Shown: positions 11,645 to 16,824 of the stretch, in pieces
How the letters are laid out: every line of letters begins with the position of its first letter
Position numbering within the stretch: position 1 is the first letter of the stretch
DNA from: a virus
Strand: one strand, 5' to 3'
Virus record (IMG/VR): IMGVR_UViG_3300005338_000020
Location: 1-38,434 of that record
DNA length: 38,434 nt
Translations under genes and position numbers: made by a program
The notes under the pieces: model-generated
Seen by the model: the letters and a program-made list of their open reading frames with translations, nothing else
Told to the model about the DNA's origin: nothing
The model's database searches: none

Positions 11645-12064
11645 ATGACAGTAGGAAGCGAAGCCATAAAGTTGCTGCAAAAAGGCGATGAAAAGCAGGG
11701 TGTAATTGATACTCAGCGCGAAATGCAAAAGGGGTACATAGATGACCTCATCAAATGCGCCAAAAGATACAAAGACTGGACAGAACTCTTTTACATTTGT
11801 GTTCAAACACGCAGAGAGCGTTTACTCTCCAATGTGGTACGCAATCAGTTCTACGGAAGACTCACAAGACCAACTCCGGAATATGACCTTGCGTTATATT
11901 CCTATGACCCGAAAACGGAAAATCTAAAATTTGAGTGGGTGGTGCCGGATAAGGAGACAGTAGAGCAAATAGTAGCAATGGATAAATTGGGCATTGTTGA
12001 TCCTGAAATAGATCCAGATCTTTGGAAATATTGCCTACAATTTCATTCAAGAACTCTACGATAA
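11645..12064 (+). CDS. Conserved phage protein of late operon
   Basis: 139 residues. 'WTELFYICVQTRRERLLSNV' followed by 'RNQFYGRLTRPTPEYDLALY' is a distinctive pattern I associate with uncharacterised proteins next to portal genes in podovirus-like genomes. Predicted helical N-terminus then a beta domain. It is the last rightward gene before the leftward island; its end overlaps the convergent gene at 12043 by 22 bases. The ribosome site is AAAAGGG. Confidence 0.6.
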   Translation: MTVGSEAIKLLQKGDEKQGVIDTQREMQKGYIDDLIKCAKRYKDWTELFYICVQTRRERLLSNVVRNQFYGRLTRPTPEYDLALYSYDPKTENLKFEWVVPDKETVEQIVAMDKLGIVDPEIDPDLWKYCLQFHSRTLR

Positions 12065-12528: not shown

Positions 12529-12753
12529 TTATTGATTTTCGTACAATTCCTTACGCATTTGGATGCATCTTTTTCTAATTATGTTTATAAAGTCTTCGAC
12601 ACATACTTCTTCAAAATCACATAAAATAGAACAAATAATTTCGAGAAGTGCAGATATACCTACAGCTGCATCAACATTTTTTCGAATAAATTCATCTAAG
12701 ATGCTAGCAGCAATTTGTTTACTATATTCTGCTTCTTTTGTAAGATCTTCCAT
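12529..12753 (-). CDS. Small helical protein, paralogue of 12043-12258
   Basis: 74 residues from ATG 12753, three bases after the upstream stop, with GGTGGGA as ribosome site; a GTG at 12768 would overlap the upstream gene. The 'EFIRKNV-x-x-AVGI' block is shared with the paralogue at 12043-12258. Function unknown. Confidence 0.6.
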   Translation of the reverse strand: MEDLTKEAEYSKQIAASILDEFIRKNVDAAVGISALLEIICSILCDFEEVCVEDFINIIRKRCIQMRKELYENQ

Positions 12754-12755
12754 AA

Positions 12756-13238
12756 CTAATCCCACCACTTTAAGGAGTGTTTTTCAAAGTTTTTCCAAAG
12801 CAATTTGAAGAGATCTTTTTTGATTTCCTCATCTTTTTTGAGAGAAATAACGCAATACTTACAAAATCTACCACCCCGCCACCCTTGAGTCAATTCTCTC
12901 CAATTATTTGGCATACAGGAACAGAGTTCAGGATATCTTTTTCCAGATTCAGGTAAAAGTTCATCATTGAAGGCAAACCGCTCTAAAAGAACTTCAGTGA
13001 TTCTAATTTGTTGGCAAATATCATCACAATCACGATGCCGGTTGTTTTTTTGAAAAGAGATGCGCAAGAGAGAAAGTTTGAAACGCATGATTTCGAAGAG
13101 ATATGCGGAATCCCAATCCTCATCGCGCCAGATGATTGGAAACCATGCTATAAAGCGTTTTAGGCGCCTATAGCCATTGCGCCACCAATAGAGGCGGAAG
13201 GTGTGCCAGAACCAATTTTTGATTTCATAGAGTGCCAT
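12756..13238 (-). CDS. Conserved phage protein, unknown function
   Basis: 160 residues. 'IIWRDEDWDSAYLFEIMRFKL' minus one residue at the N-terminal third, plus the C-terminal 'FKLLWKNFEKHSLKWWD', is a pattern I associate with many phage hypothetical proteins. It is rich in Trp and Arg, with three Cys near 'CSCMPNNWRE' and 'FCKYC'. Probably cytoplasmic; no catalytic motif seen. Confidence 0.65.
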   Translation of the reverse strand: MALYEIKNWFWHTFRLYWWRNGYRRLKRFIAWFPIIWRDEDWDSAYLFEIMRFKLSLLRISFQKNNRHRDCDDICQQIRITEVLLERFAFNDELLPESGKRYPELCSCMPNNWRELTQGWRGGRFCKYCVISLKKDEEIKKDLFKLLWKNFEKHSLKWWD

Positions 13239-13244
13239 TACGAA

Positions 13245-13529
13245 TTATCCTATATTTTCTTCTGGCGGTTTTGGCAGAGGCATCCAATGAATAATTTCTA
13301 TATGTTCTACATCTATGTCATATCCAGAGCAATTGCAATTTTCTATAAATCGATTATAATAATCGTCCCAAATACATGTATTTATTTGTTCTGTCCTTGT
13401 GTCTTTTCCAGATGTATATGTTCCAACTAATATATGTGCCAAAAAATCCCTATCTTTTGGTGGAGGTTTATCCTTAACACTAATCCATCCCATAGTATGT
13501 TCAGTGCATTTATCGGGATGGTTGCTCAT
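13245..13529 (-). CDS. DUF551 protein (copy 3)
   Basis: 94 residues. The typical DUF551 opening 'MGWISVKDKPPPKDRDFL' (about residue 13 onward) and closing 'IIHWMPLPKPPEE' are both clear, making this the best match of three copies in the window. It overlaps the gene upstream by ATGA. Function unknown. The first 12 residues (MSNHPDKCTEHT) could be trimmed if ATG at residue 13 is used. Confidence 0.75.
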   Translation of the reverse strand: MSNHPDKCTEHTMGWISVKDKPPPKDRDFLAHILVGTYTSGKDTRTEQINTCIWDDYYNRFIENCNCSGYDIDVEHIEIIHWMPLPKPPEENIG

Positions 13530-13768
13530 TCCTCATCTCTCCATTCCCATTTATTTTTTTTCTTTTTTTCCCAAGAACAACGCCCTGTTGCATAACGGAT
13601 TATTTTGTCTTCAAAAACAATATGCGCCCACATGCTACAAGATTCCGTTTCAGTAATTTCTAAATGTTCTCTTGCTGCTAGTTCACTTTCAAAATAACCC
13701 TTGAAATCACCCCAACCACCCAAAGGATAACAATTATCGCCATAGAAAAGTTTATATTTTTTCTGCAT
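13526..13768 (-). CDS. Hypothetical protein
   Basis: 80 residues from ATG 13768, placed by ATAGGT; a longer form from 13786 is possible. 'QKKYKLFYGDNCYPLGGWGD' and a lysine-rich C-terminus. Aromatic-rich alpha/beta appearance, no family recognised. Confidence 0.5.
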   Translation of the reverse strand: MQKKYKLFYGDNCYPLGGWGDFKGYFESELAAREHLEITETESCSMWAHIVFEDKIIRYATGRCSWEKKKKNKWEWRDEE

Positions 13769-13790
13769 AAAACCTATCCATCGCAATTTT

Positions 13791-13841
13791 TCATTTACAA
13801 ACTACATCATCCAATGTGCCGTCTAGGTCAAAGATTATCAT
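13791..13841 (-). pseudogene. Remnant of HAD-family phosphatase
   Basis: A 16-residue frame, 'MIIFDLDGTLDDVVCK', then stop. 'FDLDGTL' is the nucleophile motif I of the haloacid dehalogenase superfamily and normally opens a 130-250-residue phosphatase. The rest of the enzyme is missing from the next few hundred bases in any frame I checked, so this looks like a decayed gene start. Confidence 0.5.
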
Positions 13842-13849
13842 TTTTCACA

Positions 13850-14005
13850 TCAATGTTTATTGTTTTCACTTACTAACAATCTCCAAATTGCTCCATCCCA
13901 AAGAGTGGGATCAATTTCAGGATGACTTGCTATACAATCTTTTAGTAAATTGAAAGCTTTTTCAGTTTCTTCTTGATCTGTTTCCTTTGCTGGTCTTATT
14001 TCCAT
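13850..14005 (-). CDS. Hypothetical 51-residue protein
   Basis: ATG 14005 is preceded by GAGGGG at the right distance. The sequence 'MEIRPAKETDQEETEKAFNL' continues to 'HPEIDPTLWDGAIWRLLVSE', a plausible two-helix protein. Its stop lies eight bases before the HAD remnant. No family recognised. Confidence 0.5.
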   Translation of the reverse strand: MEIRPAKETDQEETEKAFNLLKDCIASHPEIDPTLWDGAIWRLLVSENNKH

Positions 14006-14030
14006 CAAAACCCCTCATCATCAGAATTCA

Positions 14031-14246
14031 CTAAATAATTTCTTCAAATATAAGACAAAATTGGTCAGTAACATTATGAATAAGATCAAGCTCATAAATA
14101 AAACGAACATTTCGGTCAGTATTTTGCGCTTCATGTTGTTCTCTTTTCAATTCGTCTGCATATTTTTCAAGAAAAGACAAGAACCTTTGGATTTTAGCGC
14201 CTACTTGATATTCATTTGGTGAACAGTTGCAACTTTCACAATTCAT
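14031..14246 (-). CDS. Hypothetical helical protein
   Basis: 71 residues from ATG 14246 with AAGGAG upstream. It starts with a Cys cluster ('MNCESCNCSPNEYQVGAKIQ') and continues as a long helix. The longer frame upstream would run into the tRNA-like gene, so the internal start is preferred. Confidence 0.55.
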   Translation of the reverse strand: MNCESCNCSPNEYQVGAKIQRFLSFLEKYADELKREQHEAQNTDRNVRFIYELDLIHNVTDQFCLIFEEII

Positions 14247-14266
14247 AAATCTCCTTATTAAAATTA

Positions 14267-14333
14267 GCGGAGGCACGAGTTGAACGTGCGCTGCCATGGC
14301 TTATGAAACCAGACATAGACCCCTATTCTCCGC
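14267..14333 (-). tRNA. tRNA-like gene, anticodon CAT (Met or Ile2), reduced D arm
   Basis: Read leftward: acceptor GCGGAG...CTCCGC (6 bp), T arm GCACG-TTCAACT-CGTGC (perfect 5-bp stem, standard loop), anticodon arm TGGT-TTCATAA-GCCA with CAT at the anticodon. The D arm is short (a TAG/CTA stem around GGGT) and the total is 67 nt, 4-9 short of normal. No CCA is encoded. It could be a divergent working phage tRNA or a decaying one. Confidence 0.55.
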
Positions 14334-14340
14334 GTTAAAT

Positions 14341-14380
14341 TTCCGATTTCTGATTTCCTATACAGAATCGGAAATCGGAA
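14341..14380. repeat. 15-bp hairpin between the two tRNA genes
   Basis: TTCCGATTTCTGATT (14341-14355) pairs with AATCGGAAATCGGAA (14366-14380) with one G-T pair and a 10-base loop. No T run follows on either strand. Possibly a processing signal in a dual-tRNA transcript. Confidence 0.55.
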
Positions 14381-14449
14381 CTGTTCAACCCAAGAACAAA
14401 AAACCAATCAGAATTAGAATTAAAATGTCGGCACGTTGATGGTCACATT

Positions 14450-14521
14450 CGGTACATGAAGGGATTGAACCTCCGACCAATGCGTTAACAGCGCACTGCT
14501 CTACCGCTGAGCTAATGTACC
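14450..14521 (-). tRNA. tRNA-Asn (GTT)
   Basis: Read leftward: acceptor GGTACAT/ATGTACC (7 bp perfect), D arm GCTC-AGCGGTA-GAGC, anticodon arm GTGCG-CTGTTAA-CGCAT with GTT at the anticodon, T arm GGAGG-TTCAATC-CCTTC. 71 nt plus discriminator G; CCA is not encoded. All canonical features are present. It would help decode AAC/AAU codons, which are frequent in this AT-rich genome. Confidence 0.95.
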
Positions 14522-14524
14522 ATT

Positions 14525-14659
14525 TTAATCAGGTAAATTCTTTCCAACTTCAAAACACTTTTTAATAGCTCTGATAGCAATATTTGTACCGTGATAGGAA
14601 CCTGCAATGAAACAGCAAAAACCGAATAGTGGAATGAAAAAGAAGTACCACCAATCCAT
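14525..14659 (-). CDS. 44-residue single-pass membrane protein
   Basis: ATG 14659 overlaps the stop of the SPFH gene by one base (TAATG) and has AAGGGG upstream. 'MDWWYFFFIPLFGFCCFIAG' is an N-terminal transmembrane helix followed by a short basic cytoplasmic tail. Coupling to the SPFH gene suggests the two work together at the membrane. Confidence 0.55.
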   Translation of the reverse strand: MDWWYFFFIPLFGFCCFIAGSYHGTNIAIRAIKKCFEVGKNLPD

Positions 14660-15564
14660 TATCTAACCCCTTGCAAGAACATCATTTTATCACCCATAGC
14701 ATATGTAGGAAGCTTTCCATCCCATTGCTTGATGGCTTGAGATTGTATCAGATTCTCGTCTAATGATTCAGCAAGTAATTTATTTGCTTTAGCTTCGGCT
14801 TCCGCCAGAATCGTGATTGCTTGAGCGTCAGCAGAGGCTTTTGCGGTTCTAGCAGTAGCTTGCGCTTGTGCTTCAAGAATACGACATTGCGCTTCACCTT
14901 GAGAAGTAGCCACAAGTTTTTTGGCTTGTGCTTCTGTCTCGCGCAATTCGTTTTCTCTTTGTTGTGCTCGTTGTGTGGCTTCGATTTTCTGGTTCAGAGC
15001 AGCAACCACGTTCTGAGGAAAATGAAAACGTCCAATGAGATAAATTTTAGAGATAAAGAAACCCAGAGGTTGCAAATCCCGTTTAACAAAATTCTGAACT
15101 TCGTCAAAAAATGCTTCCTTAGATAGTCCATAGAGGTCTTCTATTTTCATTTTAGACGCTGACTTATTAATAGCATCCCGAACATTATTTCTAATGAAGA
15201 CGCTGTTAATTTCATCCATTCCACGCCGATATTTTTGGAATATAAGGGGTACAGAAGTTGCATCGATGTGATAAGTAATCCCAACTTCAGCAGATACGGC
15301 AAGCCCTTCAGAAGTTTGAAAGTTAAAGGACTCGTCTGCTTCCCAAGTATGGTTTTGTTCGAATACCGGAAAAAGATAAACAGACTTCCAAGGAGATATC
15401 CAGTGGAGGCCAACATGTAGTTCATGATCTTCAACTCCTTTATCGGAGCCTAGCTGATCCACGACAACCCCGACATAACCAGGCTGTACTTGAGTCCAAC
15501 ATGTGAGCCAAAATAATAACAAGAAACAAGCTATAAAACAGGCAATCATATGGTTAATTTTCAT
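14659..15564 (-). CDS. SPFH/Band 7 (prohibitin-like) membrane protein
   Basis: 301 residues from ATG 15564, placed by AAAGGAGAAAG. One N-terminal transmembrane helix (about 6-24), then 'VQPGYVGVVVDQLG' opening the SPFH domain (about 27-200), then a helical Glu/Ala/Gln-rich coiled coil with 'IEATQRAQQRENELRETEAQ' as in prohibitins, HflK/HflC and stomatins. Such proteins form ring assemblies that organise membrane zones and control FtsH-type proteases. A phage copy could act on host proteolysis, lysis timing or superinfection; that is inference. It is flanked by two small coupled membrane proteins. Confidence 0.87.
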   Translation of the reverse strand: MKINHMIACFIACFLLLFWLTCWTQVQPGYVGVVVDQLGSDKGVEDHELHVGLHWISPWKSVYLFPVFEQNHTWEADESFNFQTSEGLAVSAEVGITYHIDATSVPLIFQKYRRGMDEINSVFIRNNVRDAINKSASKMKIEDLYGLSKEAFFDEVQNFVKRDLQPLGFFISKIYLIGRFHFPQNVVAALNQKIEATQRAQQRENELRETEAQAKKLVATSQGEAQCRILEAQAQATARTAKASADAQAITILAEAEAKANKLLAESLDENLIQSQAIKQWDGKLPTYAMGDKMMFLQGVR

Positions 15565-15778
15565 TATCTTTCTCCTTTGAAACAATAGTTCTTCCACAGT
15601 CGGTGCAATATGTTTCTGTGTTTTTGCAACCATTAGTATTGCAATCACCAATAATAAATCTCTTACAGTATTCTTTTTTGGATAAAATATTTCTATATCT
15701 GCATTTTGACAGCTCCTGGCCAACAAAATATCCACAAAATGCACCGATCAAGGAAAGTAATAAAAAAATGACCATCAT
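15554..15778 (-). CDS. Membrane-anchored cysteine-rich protein
   Basis: 74 residues. An N-terminal transmembrane helix ('MMVIFLLLSLIGAFCGYFVG') is followed by a small domain with six cysteines ('CNTNGCKNTETYCTDCGRT' and C26, C38), probably a zinc finger. It is the first gene of the SPFH operon and overlaps the SPFH gene by 11 bases. The ribosome site is GAGGAT. Not recognised beyond this. Confidence 0.6.
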   Translation of the reverse strand: MMVIFLLLSLIGAFCGYFVGQELSKCRYRNILSKKEYCKRFIIGDCNTNGCKNTETYCTDCGRTIVSKEKDNEN

Positions 15779-15809
15779 CGTGCTTTATCCTCGTATGTTG
15801 AAAAAAGTT

Positions 15810-15931
15810 CCCCTTCCAATTTATCGGCGGACATGAAGGGGCACCGCCTTTAATCTGGTGTCTCCCCAGATCGCTTATTAACGCCCACGGTCTCGGCGAA
15901 AGGAGAACAAGCATGCGACAGCTTGATTCTC
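15810..15931 (+). promoter_or_regulatory. Structured leader that can hide a ribosome site
   Basis: Several stems compete: CCCCTTC (15810-15816) with GAAGGGG (15835-15841); GGGGCACC (15838-15845) with GGTG/CCCC (15857-15867); ATCTGG (15853-15858) with CCAGAT (15866-15871). At the end, GAGAACAAGC (15903-15912) pairs with GCTTGATTCTC (15921-15931) with one bulge, leaving the ATG (15913) in the loop and covering the AAAGGAG site. Mutually exclusive stems suggest a translational switch or attenuator before the capsid operon. Matches no riboswitch I know. Confidence 0.45.
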
Positions 15932-16035
15932 AAAAGGTTCAATCACAAAAAGTGAAAGCGCGGACATTTAATAGTAAAATCTATTTTTCTGCAAGTTTTT
16001 TCTATCACTTCTACAAGTTATCCATAACTCATTAA
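15913..16035 (+). CDS. 40-residue leader peptide candidate
   Basis: ATG 15913 with a strong AAAGGAG site seven bases upstream. The product is basic then aromatic ('MRQLDSQKVQSQKVKARTF' to 'SASFFYHFYKLSITH'). It lies about 105 bases before the scaffold gene in a strongly structured leader, so it may be a regulatory leader peptide. No similarity recognised. The 105 bases after it hold only a small CACAA/TTGTG hairpin and the scaffold ribosome site. Confidence 0.4.
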   Translation: MRQLDSQKVQSQKVKARTFNSKIYFSASFFYHFYKLSITH

Positions 16036-16140
16036 AATACAGTCGCTTACACATCACATTTTATTCCTTTTAAAAATACAAATCCACACAATCTGTTGTG
16101 AAGGTAGCAAACGCTAGATTCACCACCTAGGGAGTAGTCA

Positions 16141-16824
16141 ATGGTAGATGAAAACGCTGACGTAGCAATACAGGAAGTCGTCACCCCTGAACAAGAAACT
16201 CAACCAGAGACTGTGACAGCCGTCCAGAAAGCGCCAGAGCCTCAAGAGGATGCTCAAGAGAAGAACTGGCGAGAGATGCGACAGGCATTTAAGGAACTAA
16301 AGCGCGAAAACCAATTCTTGCGCGAACAGTTTGAAAGGGCACAGCAACCTGCAAAGGCTATTGAAGAAGACATAGACGAAAATGAACCCTATGTCACTCC
16401 AAAAAGCTTTAAGAAAAAGATCCACGAGCTTGAACAGAAGCTAGTGGCTAAAGAAGCAGAAAGCATTCCTGATCGCCTGAGAGCCAAGTATGCGGACTTC
16501 GACGAAGTAGTTTCAGTAGAAAACGTTGAATTTTTGAAACAAAACGACCCTGAACTTGCGATGTCGTTAGCAGCGTTGGCTTCTGATCCATACAAACAAG
16601 GCATAGCAGCATACAAACTCCTTAAGCGATCTGATTACAATCAAGATAAGGTAAGTATGCACGAGAAGGCGAAAATTGCGGAGAACGCAAAAAAACCAAC
16701 ATCGGTACAAGCCGTGCGAAAGCAGGGTGCGTTGTCTGATGCCAATAGATTTGCAAATGGACTGACACCAGAGCTTAAAAAATCTCTCTACGCAGAGATG
16801 CAGGCAGCACGTAAGGGGGCGTAA
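16141..16824 (+). CDS. Scaffolding protein (putative)
   Basis: 227 residues with ribosome site AGGGAG. Acidic, helical, Gln/Glu-rich, with a long coiled coil 'MRQAFKELKRENQFLREQFE' and a basic C-terminal region. Composition, absence of hydrophobic core and position immediately before the major capsid gene match phage scaffolds, which assemble inside the procapsid and leave before DNA entry. The basic C-terminus would contact the coat protein, as in P22. Confidence 0.75.
   Translation: MVDENADVAIQEVVTPEQETQPETVTAVQKAPEPQEDAQEKNWREMRQAFKELKRENQFLREQFERAQQPAKAIEEDIDENEPYVTPKSFKKKIHELEQKLVAKEAESIPDRLRAKYADFDEVVSVENVEFLKQNDPELAMSLAALASDPYKQGIAAYKLLKRSDYNQDKVSMHEKAKIAENAKKPTSVQAVRKQGALSDANRFANGLTPELKKSLYAEMQAARKGA

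Follow-up and report, generated by a model that had tools for sequence, protein, structure and literature searches.

A predicted prohibitin-type SPFH protein encoded in a leftward insertion of a probable Chlamydiota phage, and the small partner of its relatives in other phages

The window, a virus record of 38,434 bases, encodes a single SPFH protein, which carries a predicted N-terminal transmembrane anchor and no lipobox. Its gene sits in a leftward insertion of about 3.7 kb and behaves as a moron. Taken together, the SPFH family, the anchor type and the inserted position are assigned with high confidence. As a whole, the data are best explained by a moron-type phage prohibitin that would cage inner-membrane proteins, a reading to which we assign a probability of about 0.45.

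The SPFH gene and the inserted block

The SPFH protein was identified with the Pfam family Band_7 (PF01145; 1.7e-27, 97 bits for a cut-off of 23.6), a match far beyond chance, and with the phrog_200 profile (1.6e-73). No second Band_7 match was found in the whole record. The AlphaFold2 model of the monomer, with a mean pLDDT of 90.1, consists of an N-terminal transmembrane helix (residues 2-20), the SPFH1/SPFH2 region (about 23-176) and an 84-residue helix (184-267). A W-x-G-x-x-P motif lies near the C-terminus; this motif and the long C-terminal helix are common to phrog_200 members. Comparison with known folds using VIA-align gave human prohibitin 1 as top match (Z 18.6 over 214 residues, rmsd 5.7), together with the erlins (Z about 17), HflC (15.9), QmcA (14) and stomatin. 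When a profile of the relatives was compared with solved structures, QmcA, prohibitin 1, HflC and HflK were retrieved, QmcA being the best sequence match; the profile match to prohibitin had an E-value of 3e-7. From the profile matches, the predicted model and the fold matches, we class the protein as a genuine member of the SPFH proteins, of prohibitin type. The phage-encoded prohibitin-like protein beside small membrane proteins that had been proposed in a sequence-only reading is supported. The sequence preceding the SPFH domain does not contain a lipobox, since in the stretch FWLTC the Thr before the Cys fails the [GAS]C pattern. The SPFH domain may be periplasmic on its predicted N-terminal helix, with an orientation taken from the charges only.

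The features of the region are the following:

12529 to 15778, minus strand: leftward gene block (moron cassette) within the rightward structural gene cluster, from ORF orientation and its absence from a sister phage
12756 to 13238, minus strand: ORF of 160 residues in the leftward block, no Pfam or PHROG match
13245 to 13529, minus strand: DUF551 protein of 94 residues in the leftward block (Pfam PF04448, 9.1e-11)
14031 to 14297, minus strand: ORF of 88 residues in the leftward block, downstream of the tRNA, no PHROG match
14449 to 14522, minus strand: tRNA-Asn (GTT), from ARAGORN and Rfam RF00005 (69.2 bits), closest to Chlamydiota tRNA-Asn
14525 to 14659, minus strand: gene of a 44-residue single-pass membrane protein (ORF, AAGGGG, hydrophobic segment)
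14659 to 15564, minus strand: SPFH/Band_7 gene, 301 residues (Pfam, PHROG, AlphaFold2, fold matches)
15554 to 15778, minus strand: gene of a 74-residue single-pass protein with a four-cysteine tail (ORF, hydrophobic segment)
15779 to 16140, minus strand: divergent intergenic region, presumed from its position to contain the promoter of the leftward block

The three coupled leftward genes described earlier are present, as ORFs of 74, 301 and 44 codons (15778-15554, 15564-14659 and 14659-14525, respectively). A Shine-Dalgarno-like site precedes each of them, AAGGGG in the case of the 44-residue gene. The 74-residue gene overlaps the SPFH gene by 11 nt, and the SPFH stop shares one base with the following start (TAATG). 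The ORF list gave a version of the SPFH protein of 361 residues, which likely begins too early: the ATG at 15564 has a well-spaced AAGGAG upstream and agrees with the relatives, and was therefore chosen, giving 301 residues. Two bases past the end of the third gene, the tRNA-Asn begins on the same strand; the sequence-only reading had not included it. A scan of the surrounding 5 kb with a promoter consensus returned 15 occurrences, compared with 14.5 expected from shuffled sequences, and the terminator consensus was likewise found at chance level.

The inserted position was established by comparison with a sister phage contig (G077:C102, 35,479 bp, binned in a Chlamydiota genome) that has the same gene order as the window, with identities of 81% for the major capsid protein and 59% for the portal. 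Between the homologs of the window ORF 11645-12064 and of the scaffold gene at 16141, the sister phage has 382 bp versus 4,076 bp in the window, and no homologs of the leftward-block genes, SPFH included, were found at that site. The block with the SPFH gene and the tRNA being thus missing from a syntenic phage, we consider it as a moron. In other phages of the same branch, the position of the SPFH gene varies and is often antisense to the adjacent structural genes, which together with the insertion corresponds to moron behaviour. Where the window has the block, a single short ORF (L138:12488-12802, minus strand) runs leftward in the sister phage and looks like a helix plus a coiled coil. Cargo genes may be preferentially accommodated at this position.

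The two small proteins flanking SPFH are less well characterised. Neither matches a Pfam or PHROG family above cut-off, and Pfam detects no NfeD domain in them. The 74-residue protein combines one hydrophobic segment with a C-x4-C-x6-C-x2-C tail; its best Pfam match, zf-LITAF-like, has an E-value of 0.66, under the cut-off. A zinc finger, as proposed for it, is suggested by the cysteine spacing only. A search of 2.9 million viral contigs detected no relatives of this protein, and at 40 loci of the window's branch neither of the small ORFs was seen again beside SPFH. By the criterion given with the earlier reading, the conservation of the trio as a system is not supported. Both ORFs are supported by overlap, ribosome sites and hydrophobicity, not by conservation.

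We searched for the host using the terminase and the tRNA. Three of 192 Chlamydiota genomes gave matches to the window terminase (56, 52 and 40%), whereas 299 Pseudomonadota genomes gave none and the best match among known phages is near 44%. For the tRNA-Asn, a match was obtained in 103 of 116 Chlamydiota, at up to 93%, and in 31 of 150 Pseudomonadota, at up to 86%. The terminase, the synteny around the capsid gene, the tRNA-Asn and the SPFH relatives thus indicate that the phage probably infects Chlamydiota; binning errors may affect genomes from metagenomes, and plasmids of Megaera/Megaira (Rickettsiales) carry related SPFH genes as well. The contigs behind the assignment are L137 and L138 (G077:C102) and L135 and L136 (G184:C1). 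The plasmid genes, in L108, AP017965 and NZ_CP104167 from Rickettsiales endosymbionts, encode window-like SPFH proteins of about 48% identity, the L108 copy being broken by stops. The chlamydial phages known from isolates are microviruses.

Phage SPFH genes and their two-helix partner

SPFH relatives were detected in 351 of 50,697 phage records, including N4 gp20 and P1 isolates, and in 558 plasmid records, of which almost all are classified as non-mobilizable. The identity of the window protein to most annotated phage members is about 30-45%. Phage SPFH genes as such were already known: SPFH ORFs of the T4-like phages 44RR, Aeh1 and RB43 were listed in 2006 (PMC1524935), and the SPFH gene of phage DLP5 was termed a moron (PMC5834331). 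The T4-like ORFs are likened to the window gene by their SPFH domain. In the open-access literature, we found no functional study of a phage SPFH gene in infection; nine SPFH proteins of P. aeruginosa are the subject of a paper that draws no phage connection, and gp19 and gp20 are unmentioned in a paper on the N4-like core genome.

In annotated phages, a gene of 62-84 codons usually lies ahead of the SPFH gene and often overlaps it. Eleven of these small proteins could be aligned over two helices, with P, S and G residues that do not vary, and 10 of the 11 match phrog_1130 ("membrane protein"). A profile built from the 11 sequences was iterated on the ORFs adjoining SPFH genes. At all 66 phage or prophage SPFH loci examined that do not belong to the window's branch, a partner of about 65 residues was thus found no further than 1.2 kb from SPFH, encoded on its strand and with E-values of at most 6e-4. 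It lies upstream or downstream of SPFH, and nearly all 66 loci have its P-x-[hydrophobic]2-S motif. Owing to the iteration, the weaker E-values are partly circular, and those of the downstream group are biased in favour of the result; the first-round profile already retrieved most of the upstream partners. Conversely, viral contigs were scanned with a four-sequence subset of the two-helix alignment; SPFH is present at each of the five loci retrieved, of which four come from closely related rV5-like phages. In the model of the partner, the two helices form a hairpin whose turn contains the motif; as both ends are often positively charged, this turn is presumably on the periplasmic side.

Most SPFH proteins outside the window's branch carry a lipobox, and lipobox and partner are strongly associated (both at 50 loci, neither at 42 and a mixed state at 10; Fisher p 1e-17 with near-duplicates removed and kinship not corrected). 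At least two of the 10 mixed cases, L008 and L011, are failures of the pattern in which lipoboxes are visible. The partner is kept across N4-like, T7-like, rV5-like and P1-like phages. An SPFH gene with a small membrane protein, as in the earlier reading, does recur as a module across phages, in the form of SPFH plus the two-helix protein. At the level of sequence the pairing is real and, as far as our literature search showed, undescribed. In Escherichia phage RCS47, which is P1-like, an unannotated 78-residue ORF with a P-x-M-I-S motif (L017:3784-4020) overlaps the SPFH gene and is the partner; the SPFH gene itself bears the annotation "putative serine protease", which is probably wrong.

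The window belongs to a distinct branch. In a tree drawn without a true root and used for grouping only, 43 rows including the window are set apart with support 100/98. The branch mostly lacks a lipobox and has a transmembrane anchor instead, and no two-helix partner was detected in 40 of its loci at E < 0.02. The best candidate ORF in the window has an E-value of 0.65, lies 525 bases from SPFH and lacks the P-x-[hydrophobic]2-S motif. The 44-residue protein was rejected as partner: it reached an E-value of 2.4 at best with the first profile, has no P-x-x-x-S and was outranked after iteration. Given these loci without partner and the association of lipobox with partner, the sequences indicate that the branch either swapped lipid anchor and partner for one transmembrane helix or never had either. 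A further anchor variant is seen in L004, L005, L050, L052 and L055, whose SPFH N-termini have two helices, several with a positively charged loop between them.

Small single-pass membrane ORFs accompany SPFH in 18 of 40 branch loci versus 10 of 73 control genes (p 3e-4, the true significance being weaker as the loci are related). A small MDW-helix-coiled-coil family recurs beside SPFH in seven loci of the branch (L022, L026, L027, L028, L029, L038 and L042). L026 has three tandem copies of it, and the phage contig L136, which lacks SPFH, probably encodes a relative. The 44-residue protein was also rejected as a member, being absent from the matches at E 50, and neither small protein of the window belongs to any of the small-ORF families found beside SPFH in the branch.

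Comparison with known systems places the window protein in a known family. It belongs to phrog_200, the "lipoprotein" family of N4 gp20 and the P1-like SPFH proteins, of which most members have the lipobox and the two-helix P-x-x-x-S partner, in contrast with the window's branch. With human PHB1 and PHB2, of which PHB1 is the best fold match, it shares the N-terminal helix anchor; it differs from them in being encoded by a single gene, its identity is about 14%, and an oligomer would be expected by analogy. E. coli HflK-HflC is similar in fold (Z 13-16) and predicted anchor but is encoded by a gene pair. In the E. coli SPFH-NfeD pair QmcA-YbbJ, an SPFH protein is encoded with a small membrane partner, as in phages; the partner there has an NfeD/OB fold, whereas the partners in phages have one or two helices and no soluble domain. 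Finally, work on Pasteurella multocida PM0222, an HflK/C-like protein of a lambda-like prophage island, addressed TLR1/2 signalling and its release in vesicles rather than a phage role (PMC9872710). These properties would fit a lipoprotein; the protein is likened to that of the window by its HflK/C-like description.

Possible roles of the phage prohibitin

In our preferred explanation, about two dozen SPFH copies would form a cage at the inner membrane, on its periplasmic side, like HflKC or prohibitin, with the two small single-pass proteins in or beside the ring as dispensable, fast-changing accessories. The cage would enclose or shield inner-membrane proteins during infection and so alter their turnover or mobility. 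In most other phages, a lipid-anchored SPFH protein and the phrog_1130 protein would do the same task; in the window's branch, the transmembrane helix fused to the SPFH domain would replace both lipid anchor and partner, and the proteins should remain in the inner membrane. By analogy with solved complexes, we hold a periplasmic cage to be somewhat more probable than the explanation as a whole. HflKC forms a periplasmic enclosure around FtsH (PMC12048511), and periplasmic HflK/C are anchored by N-terminal helices (PMC12624060). The host FtsH protease would therefore be the first candidate client, although we regard it as a doubtful direct one. Against the explanation as a whole, the window has a single SPFH gene without an HflK/HflC pair, and many of the lipoprotein relatives carry a Ser directly behind the lipid cysteine. 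In E. coli, a Ser at this position would favour the outer membrane, away from FtsH.

Alternatively, an SPFH scaffold might stiffen or partition the inner membrane early in infection without FtsH, blocking the DNA entry of a second phage or repairing the damage made by the first. The early or middle position of the gene in N4 and TL agrees with such exclusion or sealing, as do the moron-like position of the window gene and the organisation of membranes proposed for solved SPFH complexes (PMC12624060). The gene ahead of gp19-gp20 in N4 (gp18, L009:3401-3715), annotated "similar to P22 gp17", also points this way; profiles of defence systems, however, gave no match, and we consider this role rather unlikely. 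The same gene position speaks against a general role in lysis timing or delay, for instance through holin turnover or placement. A membrane scaffold could by analogy act on holins, one matched record is annotated "RIIB lysis inhibitor", and rIIA lies about 3 kb from the gene in QDWS595; yet no annotated holin or endolysin adjoins SPFH in the regions read, and lysis timing or inhibition is very improbable. N4 and rV5-like phages are virulent. Their having SPFH relatives also makes a general role in lysogeny control unlikely.

The gene might also have no phage-specific task and derive from an exchange of Chlamydiota prohibitins that improves host envelope fitness. Stand-alone SPFH genes of the same branch do occur on Chlamydiota contigs, one of them 316 kb long with ordinary chromosomal genes around, and they fall among the viral ones in the tree. 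The dedicated partner retained across so many phage groups argues instead for a phage role, and simple capture appears unlikely, slightly more so than exclusion. A more serious doubt concerns the two small ORFs, which could be unrelated neighbours or non-coding, the SPFH gene alone being of importance. Neither is conserved, and the control genes show that small membrane ORFs are not peculiar to SPFH. Against this, their starts and stops overlap, their ribosome sites are good and such ORFs are enriched beside SPFH in the branch, so that we give this possibility a real, minor share.

More broadly, and as a tentative proposal, tailed phages might possess a widespread, undescribed two-part envelope machine of the N4 gp20-gp19 type, in which a lipid-anchored prohibitin cage acts with a near-obligate two-helix partner and remodels the quality control of host membrane proteins early in infection; the branch present in tailed Chlamydiota phages and on contigs of their hosts would have fused the anchor and dropped the partner. 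Tailed phages of Chlamydiota would be of interest in themselves, and the window's branch illustrates how parts may be swapped, a lipid anchor and partner on one side and one transmembrane helix on the other. The pair gp19-gp20 of N4, a classical laboratory phage, offers a defined target of two genes on which the need of phages for a prohibitin can be tested directly.
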